Source of the DNA: Fundidesulfovibrio agrisoli
Lineage (GTDB): Bacteria > Desulfobacterota > Desulfovibrionia > Desulfovibrionales > Desulfovibrionaceae
Direction of reading: 5' to 3'
DNA: 64,000 nt
Assembly: GCF_022808715.1 (NCBI RefSeq)
Contig: NZ_JAKZKX010000001.1
Span: forward strand, 62,001-126,000
Below are positions 3,646 through 5,931 of this stretch, piece by piece. Every line of letters begins with the position of its first letter. The stretch's first letter is position 1. The notes under the pieces are model-generated. The model saw only the letters and a program-made list of their open reading frames with translations. It did not search any database and was not told the origin of the DNA. The translations under genes and the position numbers were made by a program.

Positions 3646-5931
3646 ATGGCACACGCAGACATCCTCTCTCTCGCGGGCGACACCCCGCTGGTGACCATCC
3701 GGCGCCTCAACCCCAATCCGGACGTCACCCTGCTGGTCAAGCTGGAGGCCAAGAATCCGGGCGGCTCCATCAAGGACCGCGTGGCCCTGGCCATGATCGA
3801 GGCGGCCCAGGCATCCGGGGAACTCACCCCGGGCAAGACCGTCATCGAGGCCACCTCGGGCAACACCGGCATCGGCCTGGCCATGGTCTGCGCCGTGAAG
3901 GGGCTCAAGCTCACGCTGGTCATGCCGTCCTCCGCCTCGGAGGAGCGCAAGCGCATCATGCGGGCCTACGGGGCCGAGCTGCTGCTCACCCCCGGGCACC
4001 TGGGCACGGACGGGGCCATCGAGGAGGCCTACCGCCTGGCCCGCGAATACCCCGAACGTTACGTGCTCATGGATCAGTTCAACAATCCCGCCAGCATAGA
4101 GGCCCACTACCGGGGCACAGGCCAGGAAATCTGGGACCAGACCGGGGGCGCGGTCACCCACGTGGTGGCCACCCTGGGAACATCGGGAACCGCCATGGGC
4201 ATCGCCAAGAAACTCAAGGAATTGAACCCCGCCGTCAAAGTGGTGGCGGTGGAGCCCAGGCCCGGGCACAGGATACAGGGGCTCAAGAACATGCAGGAGT
4301 CCTACCCGCCGGGCATCTACGACAAGCGGGCGCTGGAGGTTGTGCGCGTGGAGGACGAGGAAGCCTTCGACATGGCCAGGCAGTTGGCGCGCCAGGAGGG
4401 CATCCTGGCGGGAATGAGCGGCGGCGCGGCCATGGCCGCGGCGGCCAGCCTCTGCCGGGAGCTGGTCTCCGGGCTGGTGGTGGCCATCCTGCCCGACGGC
4501 GGCGAACGCTACCTCTCCACCGAACTGTACGCCGCGCAGGAGCAGCGCGGCGTGCGCCTGCGCACCGTGGAGACCGGCAAACACGTTCACCTGCCCCCCG
4601 GCGCGGCCGGATTCTACACCCCCGGCCCCAGCCTGGACGCCACGGCCGACGCCGAATGCTGGCGGCGCATCGTGCTTTTGGACGTGCTGGCCCGGCACGG
4701 GCGCGGGCGGGACGCGGCCTCCTCCGTGGTGGTGGGCCTGGCCGACATGGACGATCGCGCCCTGGCCGCATCGCGCGCGGCGGGGCTTTCGCGGGAGGAT
4801 TTCGCCCGCCAGGCCCTGGACGGGCTCGGCAGGCTGGCGGCGCAACTGCGCGTGGAGGCCAGCTTCGCCATGGCCTCGGCCTCGCTGGAGCGCATGCTGG
4901 ACATGACCAGGGCGCTCATGCGCAAGGGCTACAGCTACGAGCGGCTGCGCTCGGTGTATTTCGACGTGGCCCGCGACAAGGGCTACGGGGCGCTCTCCCA
5001 CGCCAACCTGGGCAAGCTGGCCCTGGGCAAGACCGTGGACCTGGCCGCCTACCTCAAGGACCACCCGCAGGACTTCACCCTGCTCAAGCGCGTGAGCCTG
5101 CAGGATCTCAAGCTCGGCCAGGTGGTGCAGACCGAGTGGGGGGCCGTGCGCCCCAGCTGGTTCCTGCAGATGGCGGCCTGCCCCCTGGAGCGGCTGCCCA
5201 AGCTCTCGGCGGTGCTGGCGGGCGAGGGGCAGTGCTTCCCCATGCTCGAGAACCTGCGCGCCATCTGGAACCTGACCGGCGTGGCGCGCCCGGCGGCCTG
5301 GCTCACCAGCGGCGTGGTCAAGGGTTCGGGGGATTCCTGCGACCTGGCCGAGGTGGCCCGGAGCATGGGCGGGTTCCAGGCGGCCAGGCTGTGGCTGCTC
5401 TCGCTGCACTACCGCAGGCCGCTGGACGTTTCGGAGAAGACGCTCTCCATGTGGGCCAGGAACTGGCGCAAGCTCCAGGACACGGCCGTGAACCTCTCGC
5501 ACTGCGCCGTGAACGATTCCGTGGCCTCGGCCGACGCGGCCCAGGCCGTGGAGACCTTGCGCGCCGAGCTGGAGCAGGCCCTGGACGACGACCTGGGGCT
5601 GCACCGCTTCTGGCCGCAGCTCTTCGCCTATTGCCGCCGGGCCAACGCGGCCGCCGGAACGCGCGGCCCCACCCCCGGGGACGCGGCCATCTACCTGGAG
5701 GGCCTCAAGGCCGTGAACGCGGTTCTGGGGGTGATGGACGAATCGCGCCTGCCCCTGGCCAGGCAGGCCTGGCCGGGTTTGGCCCAGAGCATGGTGGAGA
5801 AGCGCGAGACGGCCCGCTCCGCCAAGGATTTCGACCTGGCCGACACCCTGCGGGAGCAGCTCGGGCTCATGGGCCTCCGGCTGGAGGACACCTCCGCAGG
5901 GCCGCGGCTCTTCACCGTCAGCCCGGAATAG
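3646..5931 (+). CDS. cysK: Cysteine synthase fused to a degenerate cysteinyl-tRNA-synthetase-like domain
   Basis: 761 residues in two parts. Residues 1-300 are a complete PLP-dependent O-acetylserine sulfhydrylase: PLP lysine K43 in SIKDR, substrate loop TSGNTG (70-75), phosphate loop GTSGT (178-182) and PDGGERYLS (283-291). It should make cysteine from O-acetylserine and sulfide. Residues 305-761 align along their length with cysteinyl-tRNA synthetase, but the active sites are gone. The zinc-cysteine/HIGH segment is FYTPGPS... (323 on), the KMSKS loop is KGSGD (559-563), and the HHENE zinc site is MLENL (533-537). The domain is therefore unlikely to charge tRNA. Similar fusions are annotated as cysteine synthase in sulfate reducers. 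The start at 3646 gives MAHADILSL, the usual CysK beginning. Confidence 0.88.
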   Translation: MAHADILSLAGDTPLVTIRRLNPNPDVTLLVKLEAKNPGGSIKDRVALAMIEAAQASGELTPGKTVIEATSGNTGIGLAMVCAVKGLKLTLVMPSSASEERKRIMRAYGAELLLTPGHLGTDGAIEEAYRLAREYPERYVLMDQFNNPASIEAHYRGTGQEIWDQTGGAVTHVVATLGTSGTAMGIAKKLKELNPAVKVVAVEPRPGHRIQGLKNMQESYPPGIYDKRALEVVRVEDEEAFDMARQLARQEGILAGMSGGAAMAAAASLCRELVSGLVVAILPDGGERYLSTELYAAQEQRGVRLRTVETGKHVHLPPGAAGFYTPGPSLDATADAECWRRIVLLDVLARHGRGRDAASSVVVGLADMDDRALAASRAAGLSREDFARQALDGLGRLAAQLRVEASFAMASASLERMLDMTRALMRKGYSYERLRSVYFDVARDKGYGALSHANLGKLALGKTVDLAAYLKDHPQDFTLLKRVSLQDLKLGQVVQTEWGAVRPSWFLQMAACPLERLPKLSAVLAGEGQCFPMLENLRAIWNLTGVARPAAWLTSGVVKGSGDSCDLAEVARSMGGFQAARLWLLSLHYRRPLDVSEKTLSMWARNWRKLQDTAVNLSHCAVNDSVASADAAQAVETLRAELEQALDDDLGLHRFWPQLFAYCRRANAAAGTRGPTPGDAAIYLEGLKAVNAVLGVMDESRLPLARQAWPGLAQSMVEKRETARSAKDFDLADTLREQLGLMGLRLEDTSAGPRLFTVSPE

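Follow-up and report, generated by a model that had tools for sequence, protein, structure and literature searches.

We analysed a 64,000-nucleotide stretch of the Fundidesulfovibrio agrisoli genome (phylum Desulfobacterota, order Desulfovibrionales; contig NZ_JAKZKX010000001.1, positions 62,001 to 126,000), hereafter the window, which carries on its forward strand a gene joining a cysteine synthase to a degenerate module of cysteinyl-tRNA synthetase (CysRS). The open reading frame (ORF), whose frame and coordinates we verified, occupies 3646-5931, from an ATG at 3646 to the TAG stop codon at 5929-5931, and encodes 761 aa, of which aa 1-297 form a cysteine synthase of CysK/CysM type and aa 318-755 a full-length module derived from CysRS. 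In Pfam the protein matches PALP (257 bits) and tRNA-synt_1e (71.9 bits). A first-pass annotation, made from the window's letters, had proposed that a cysteine synthase is fused here to a catalytically dead CysRS-like half, and the fusion is confirmed by the TIGR01136 and TIGR00435 profiles, Pfam and structure alignment. We rejected misassembly, since 105 sequences (this one included) from many genomes and metagenome-assembled genomes share the architecture, as well as a pseudogene, given the open frame and the purifying selection described below.

The synthase half (3646-4536), as judged by TIGR01136, motifs and the structural model, has its catalytic residues intact. Residues 7-295 pass the NCBIfam cysKM profile TIGR01136 (358.5 bits against a cut-off of 344.15), and the lysine that binds pyridoxal phosphate, Lys43, and the SGNTG loop are kept in 105/105 fusions. 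The closest PDB chains are those of CysM/OASS-B, 2jc3 (E 3.5e-75) and 2bhs (E 5.7e-75). In an AlphaFold model of the fusion (eight input sequences; mean predicted local distance difference test score, pLDDT, 78.4; predicted template modelling score 0.59), aa 4-296 align with 2bhs over 283 residues (Z 36.0, root mean square deviation, rmsd, 2.1).

The tail is recognisable as CysRS throughout its length. Residues 322-755 cover positions 23-463 of the 466 of the cysS profile TIGR00435 at 117.9 bits, below its cut-off of 340, and aa 312-761 score 30.9 bits with the MshC profile TIGR03447, far under its cut-off of 485.1. The resemblance is well above chance level, phmmer matching the PDB CysRS 8qhp at E 7.2e-26. 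Because the synthase half filled the best 50 Foldseek matches, the fold match rests on pairwise structure alignment: aa 301-703 of the model align with 8qhp over 372 residues (Z 36.6, rmsd 3.0), and aa 302-758 with the tRNA-bound CysRS 1u0b over 409 residues (Z 35.2, rmsd 5.7).

Within this fold, profiles and alignments delimit a remnant of the catalytic domain (aa 318-600, 4597-5445) that has lost the HIGH motif, the zinc ligands and KMSKS. Alignment to the intact CysS of the same genome bears out the earlier claim that these motifs are replaced: YVCGIT..CHIGHAR and HLECS of the intact enzyme correspond to FYTPGPS..DAECWR and FLQMA in the fusion, and FPHHENE and KMSKS to FPMLENL and KGSGD. 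The former zinc Cys and HIGH segment now reads FYTPGPSLDATADAEC (aa 323-338, 4612-4659), the former FPHHENE zinc motif CFPMLENL (aa 530-537, 5233-5256) and the former KMSKS loop KGSGD (aa 559-563, 5320-5334). The places of the zinc ligands, which we take to be Cys28, Cys209, His234 and Glu238 in E. coli numbers (counting as the zinc His the first His of FPHH, by the E. coli numbering of the 1li5 alignment), are held by P326, M509, M533 and L537, so that none of the four ligands is kept. As judged by alignment and model, the tail of the window protein and its closest relatives, the window clade, thus appears to retain the CysRS fold without the motifs on which amino-acid activation and zinc-cysteine binding depend. 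An active CysRS in the window protein was rejected, all motifs being lost and a separate cysS being present.

Distribution of the fusion and graded decay of its tail

Poor conservation among relatives, which the first-pass annotation had named as grounds for doubting the module, is not what we found. The full-length fusion is present in 28/39 genomes of relatives, the F. agrisoli genome included; it is matched at E<=1e-120 in 96/150 genomes of the order, four of these partial; and it is found in 156/395 genomes sampled from the phylum, counted as genomes with a best E<=7e-137 (the next weaker being 6e-111), some of them partial, with two candidates scored per genome. Two of seven genomes of the same genus are without it, one of these only 66% complete. 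In Gemmatimonadota the fusion was matched at E<=1e-100 in 0/61 genomes, the matches covering the CysRS part or, once, only the synthase half. A non-exhaustive scan of genome contigs with six peptide patterns returned full-length relatives in seven records, six of Desulfovibrionales type and one of Desulfobacteraceae; the genome-wide searches covered Desulfobacterota and Gemmatimonadota. One genome of the order (G507; 89% complete, 5% contaminated) has two full-length fusions.

The fusion coexists with a true CysRS. The first-pass annotation had held that absence of another cysS would imply an active domain; an intact cysS (CHIGHAR, FPHHENE, KMSKS) lies on contig 12 of the same genome, preceded by an ORF that by eye resembles a fused IspD/IspF. 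A separate cysS scores above the family cut-off in 64/67 fusion genomes and the fusion is therefore normally not the cell's CysRS; of the remaining three, G061 has a separate cysS only as a 100-position fragment, and G043 (79% complete) and G255 (82% complete) are without one. The company of a true CysRS in 64 of these 67 genomes, the shared amino acid and tRNA family and the retained anticodon domain (see below) fit a scaffold, a role also put forward in the first-pass annotation, in which the tail would keep tRNA-Cys or the true CysRS near the synthase, handing fresh cysteine to charging. We consider this a long shot, however, as no CysS was recognised near the fusion at 40 loci, where the closest ORF on the same strand, no more than 250 bases away to either side, was inspected by eye over its first 70 residues. 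This survey of the neighbourhood gave no functional pointer; genes resembling MurJ and Memo are repeated neighbours in some lineages. In the window the fusion gene is stand-alone, flanked upstream by an MptE-like gene in divergent orientation and downstream by a gene for an EamA transporter in convergent orientation. Elsewhere in the window, a small forward-strand ORF pair at 1094-1357 and 1359-1712 resembles a HicA/HicB toxin-antitoxin system; the second ORF matches the HicB Pfam models PF05534 and PF15919, while the first is HicA-like by eye alone, without a Pfam match at E<=0.01.

To compare motif retention, we aligned 105 fusions, 34 of the window clade and 71 others, beside 32 standalone canonical CysS sequences. 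The 71 others comprise L013 with its 30 best matches, and a further 40 hand-picked sequences (mostly one or two per family), a non-random set that includes near-duplicates; the CysS reference consists of the 30 best-scoring standalone matches, L082 and the CysS of F. agrisoli, and leans canonical, with L083 and the HIGN-type sequences L161-L164 omitted. Two contig-cut pieces (L014, L016) were also omitted. Every counted motif residue is kept in 32/32 standalone CysS. In the 71 fusions outside the window clade retention is graded. Of the zinc ligands, the first Cys is kept in 62, the second in 65, the His in 71 and the Glu in 47. HIGH retains its first His in 44 sequences, its Gly in 52 and the His at its fourth position in 7; KMS(K/R)S is intact in 19. 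In the window clade 0/34 sequences keep either zinc Cys, the zinc Glu, either HIGH His or KMS(K/R)S; 4/34 keep the HIGH Gly and 31/34 the zinc His, where the window protein has Met.

These counts bear on whether the tail could serve cysteine feedback, with the CysRS pocket binding free cysteine through a zinc-thiolate contact and inhibiting the synthase, in the manner of HisZ and histidine, and with a rebuilt pocket in the window clade. All four zinc ligands are present in 44/71 fusions outside the clade, which, with the fourth HIGH His in so few, would amount to binding without activation. Within the dead clade, R502-P503 and W505, the latter at what we take to be the place of the E. coli cysteine-pocket residue W205, are kept in 34/34, and the zinc His, as noted, in 31/34. 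Against this stands the loss of both zinc Cys and the zinc Glu in 34/34 clade members, the window protein being without the zinc His as well, and we regard the feedback model as rather unlikely. Cysteine sensing, one of the roles put forward in the first-pass annotation, is accordingly improbable through the old zinc pocket of the window protein, whereas elsewhere in the phylum cysteine may be sensed by those lineages in which the zinc site is retained.

The near-intact end of the series raises a different possibility, limited to fusions outside the window clade: a bifunctional enzyme that makes cysteine and activates it for tRNA or, in the manner of MshC, for another acceptor. In 14/71 of these fusions the set of four zinc ligands is complete and both H.G of HIGH and KMS(K/R)S are present as well. 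Asn holds the fourth HIGH position in 4 of them, and Ile, Val or Leu holds it in the other 10; five of the 14 (L065, L071-L073, L075) belong to one genus. Asn at this position is compatible with function, since a CysRS read as HIGN with KMAKS (L161) is the only separate one in genome G199. We nevertheless hold such bifunctionality to be highly improbable, as the window protein is without any catalytic motif and almost all fusion genomes have a CysRS of their own.

In a tree of the CysRS half, the 105 fusions form one clade with support 0.61, which falls to 0.28 once the HIGN-type CysRSs are added; a single origin is therefore not firmly shown. The 34 window-clade sequences are nested within the fusions (support 1.0), and their mean root-to-tip distance is 2.97, as compared to 1.09 for the other fusions and 0.96 for CysS. 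The fusions together with L161-L164 and L083 split from canonical CysS with support 0.98. The simplest history suggested by this tree would be a single fusion event, after which HIGH eroded early and the window clade lost what remained of the active site. The only separate CysRSs of G199 and G143 (L161, L162) group with the HIGN type. Two further CysRS-like proteins of this type, L163 (1505-3691, + strand; HLGN) and L164 (842-3013, - strand; HIGN) of genomes G058 and G096, continue in frame into a domain that is glycosyltransferase-like by eye, and are 728 and 723 aa long. L083, a separate CysRS-like protein of 433 aa, has HVGN and KMSKS and comes from the genome that carries L013; its match ends before the C-terminus, which makes it, by sequence, a candidate member of the CysRS* kind reported in the part of PMC9437257 available to us.

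Cysteine supply in fusion genomes

While F. agrisoli itself has, on contig 23, a cysK gene directly followed by a serine acetyltransferase (SAT) gene, in many fusion genomes neither a second close CysK nor a SAT was matched. We searched with a CysK query at E<=1e-35 and with the F. agrisoli SAT, EpsC, at E<=1e-12. Among 46 phylum genomes at least 90% complete, the fusion is the sole CysK match in 23 and is accompanied by a separate CysK in the other 23; the SAT query finds a match in 0/23 of the former and in 22/22 tested of the latter. Among the relatives, 7/28 fusion genomes are without a second close CysK match, and SAT is matched in 0/6 tested of these as compared to 21/21 with a second CysK. 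Pooled over 72 fusion genomes, a chosen and non-random set, SAT is thus matched in 0/29 without and 43/43 with a second CysK. A family search with TIGR01172 at E<=1e-5, which found matches in all 14 control genomes (the F. agrisoli SAT scores 164.9 bits against a cut-off of 210.65), gave in 26 of the 29 genomes either nothing or matches no stronger than E 7.7e-13, most of which fell in the C-terminal, repeat-rich portion of the model. It follows from the two sets of searches that most of the 29 genomes have no candidate cysteine synthase besides the fusion, and that O-acetylserine is without an evident source in most of them. By eye on match scores, we saw no link between SAT absence and intactness of the tail.

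O-phosphoserine is an intermediate of serine synthesis, and by analogy with CysM of Mycobacterium tuberculosis it would be the obvious alternative substrate in genomes without a detectable SAT. The relevant part of the fusion is the loop HRIQGLKNMQESY (aa 208-220, 4267-4305; alignment with CysM and CysK chains). Its Lys214, invariant in 105/105 fusions, aligns to a residue of M. tuberculosis CysM, Arg220 in the numbering of chain 3dwi, that presumably binds the phosphate of O-phosphoserine, and falls in a gap in the aligned CysK chains; an insertion with a basic residue is common to the fusion (GLKNM) and M. tuberculosis CysM (ALRNM). On these grounds, the fusion looks like a cysteine synthase that works independently of SAT, perhaps with O-phosphoserine as its substrate.

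G016 and G029 of the order have no fusion, no close CysK match and no SAT by the EpsC query, and look like cysteine auxotrophs or users of another route; the TIGR01172 search gives a SAT-like match of 104 bits in G029. SAT-like acetyltransferases of about 170-195 aa occur beside polysaccharide-looking genes in L158 (1309-3039), L159 (785-1366) and L160 (1289-1795), the SAT-like part of L158 being the start of a 576-aa ORF.

Selection on the tail and its possible role

The ratio of nonsynonymous to synonymous substitution rates (dN/dS) of the tail is 0.11-0.26 in 5/6 pairs of relatives, the sixth pair being saturated, and the tail is, on this evidence, maintained by purifying selection. A module that seems incapable of its former chemistry has persisted for a very long time in sulfate reducers and related bacteria, and it may control or steer the making of cysteine. 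Columns at least 90% conserved in the window clade include Y431-E432, S436, Y438, Y447-G448, K471, P474, D476-F477 and K481-R482, further W498-G499, R502-P503, W505, F531-P532, N536, W552 and R581, and, in the anticodon domain, R720, D733, R736 and D748. Conserved residues specific to the fusion are P328, R341, E432, S436, T463, Y469, R482 and K489. A fusion-conserved stretch, delimited by this conservation, spans aa 431-482 (4936-5091) with the pattern YE(K/R)LRS.Y.D...YG ... TVDL..Y.K..P.DFTL.KR. It overlaps the model's longest low-confidence stretch, aa 429-477 (4930-5076; pLDDT <50), which a ligand or partner may order.

That the best conserved stretch is partly fusion-specific, that the dN/dS of the tail exceeds the value for the synthase half 1.7- to 3.2-fold in the five pairs, and that the dead clade has the longest mean root-to-tip distance would all fit a structural tail on which the dimerisation or folding of the synthase came to depend, with no ligand bound. 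This explanation appears doubtful to us, however, since the invariant or nearly invariant residues of the anticodon domain would hardly be needed unless structural themselves.

This CysRS-type anticodon-binding domain (aa 715-755, 5788-5910), recognised by alignment to 1li5, places R724, F729, D733 and D748 on E. coli R427, W432, D436 and D451, which we take to be the residues reading the GCA anticodon. Over the 34 clade members, R724 is kept in 30 (with Lys in three more), an aromatic residue (F or Y) at 729 in 34, D733 in 34 and D748 in 33, with one gap. Of the positions invariant in CysS, the clade keeps 29/97 in the catalytic domain as compared to 6/10 in the anticodon domain (Fisher p 0.076), and the window protein 42/97 as compared to 8/10 (p 0.043). 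As CysRS anticodon-domain residues are kept, tRNA-Cys binding may survive in the tail, and the earlier suggestion of a tRNA-binding role gains some support from their retention beside a lost active site. With the zinc site lost and the anticodon domain kept, tRNA-Cys would be the more likely ligand in the window clade.

SAT is the usual point of cysteine feedback, and on a route from O-phosphoserine to cysteine that bypasses SAT, control would have to sit on the synthase. A tail derived from CysRS, an enzyme that bound both cysteine and tRNA-Cys, would suit this task, much as HisZ does for histidine. The explanation we tentatively favour, as a possibility somewhat short of probable, is that the fusion is a SAT-free, likely O-phosphoserine-using synthase with a regulatory, tRNA-Cys-binding tail of CysRS origin. 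The synthase half would make cysteine from O-phospho-L-serine and sulfide; the C-terminal module would descend from a CysRS paralogue and would bind tRNA-Cys, perhaps in its uncharged form as an RNA-sensing regulatory device; and this binding would tune or localise synthesis at the sole cysteine-specific step of the SAT-free pathway. The substrate, the tRNA binding and the regulation are what we infer from sequence. An improbable variant is tRNA-coupled synthesis, in which the tail would hold tRNA-Cys and cysteine would be made from O-phosphoserine in response to it or for it, convergent with the archaeal SepRS/SepCysS system, the series of tails recording a make-and-charge ancestry.

Several observations weigh against a SAT-free, tRNA-regulated synthase. 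As to the substrate, the argument for O-phosphoserine from the loop is one aligned residue, Lys instead of Arg, and E. coli-type CysM chains are also basic at the Lys214 place (GIRRW), so that Lys214 leaves the substrate unsettled; CysM of Campylobacter jejuni accepts O-acetylserine only, according to the part of PMC9855970 available. F. agrisoli itself has cysK and SAT, the fusion being a second synthase there. SAT-like ORFs of 82-120 bits appear in the TIGR01172 search in 3/29 genomes (G018, G036, G090), where by eye they adjoin polysaccharide-looking genes. CysK and SAT genes are often adjacent, and their joint presence in the 43 genomes is therefore expected, leaving the 29 to carry the weight; the SAT-free organisms could also be cysteine scavengers. 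As to the tail, the enrichment of kept positions in the anticodon domain is weak at the p values given above, the kept residues could be structural, and Pfam CysS_C matches the window protein only at E 0.1. Taken as a whole, the anticodon segment is not more constrained: its dN/dS is 0.39 in the closest pair (five synonymous and six nonsynonymous changes) and 0.075-0.63 in four further pairs, with synonymous sites near saturation in several of the dN/dS pairs. Finally, the genome that carries L013, whose completeness is unstated, gave matches to the fusion and to the paralogue L083 but to no canonical cysS.

If the SAT-free, tRNA-regulated reading holds, many members of one phylum control their cysteine supply via a repurposed tRNA synthetase, and 29 of the 72 chosen fusion genomes make cysteine without a recognisable SAT. 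The graded decay offers a natural series, from a near-intact to a dead synthetase, in which the losses of zinc, ATP and tRNA binding can be examined singly. There is also a caution for annotation: some fusions exceed the cysS cut-off (L061, 461 bits) and may find their way into CysRS counts, and any rule that demands SAT would label bacteria without a recognisable one cysteine auxotrophs.

Comparison with known systems

We found no description of the fusion in the open-access literature within the wording searched, and a CysK-CysRS fusion is not among the CysRS paralogues in the part of PMC9437257 available. In a Desulfovibrio vulgaris biofilm, DVU0663 (cysK) increased, according to the available part of PMC3431258. 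The kind is already known, namely an aminoacyl-tRNA synthetase paralogue recruited by amino-acid biosynthesis; the phylum-wide fusion and its graded decay are, within the literature searched, new.

The closest parallel in logic is HisZ, a paralogue of HisRS that has no adenylation activity and through which feedback acts on histidine synthesis (PMC9437257, part available). As in HisZ, a synthetase paralogue that has lost its catalytic motifs is attached to an enzyme making the same amino acid, and the tail is best read, by analogy, as a synthetase-derived regulatory or tRNA-binding module. Whereas HisZ derives from the class II HisRS and is a separate subunit of the HisG ATP-phosphoribosyltransferase, at the first step of its pathway, the fusion carries a class I CysRS module, joined covalently, at the last step; and whereas HisZ serves histidine feedback, the fusion tail would be regulatory by inference.

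The synthase half resembles M. tuberculosis CysM (3dki; Z 35.4, rmsd 2.3, 287 aligned residues), sharing the LRN/LKN insertion with its basic residue. Unlike that enzyme, which is O-phosphoserine-dependent by the title of 3dki, the fusion has a CysRS tail, and Lys214 in place of Arg220. The tail, in turn, shares its fold and anticodon-domain residues with canonical CysRS (1li5, 1u0b, 8qhp), from which it differs in being without the zinc site, HIGH and KMSKS and in sitting behind a synthase. To our knowledge, the mycothiol ligase MshC has no anticodon domain. MshC and the CysRS* of Desulfobacterales are CysRS paralogues with a new job, CysRS* being an active enzyme without an anticodon domain, in the part of PMC9437257 available. 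As compared to these two active enzymes, the fusion tail is the reverse: its anticodon domain is kept and its catalytic motifs are lost.

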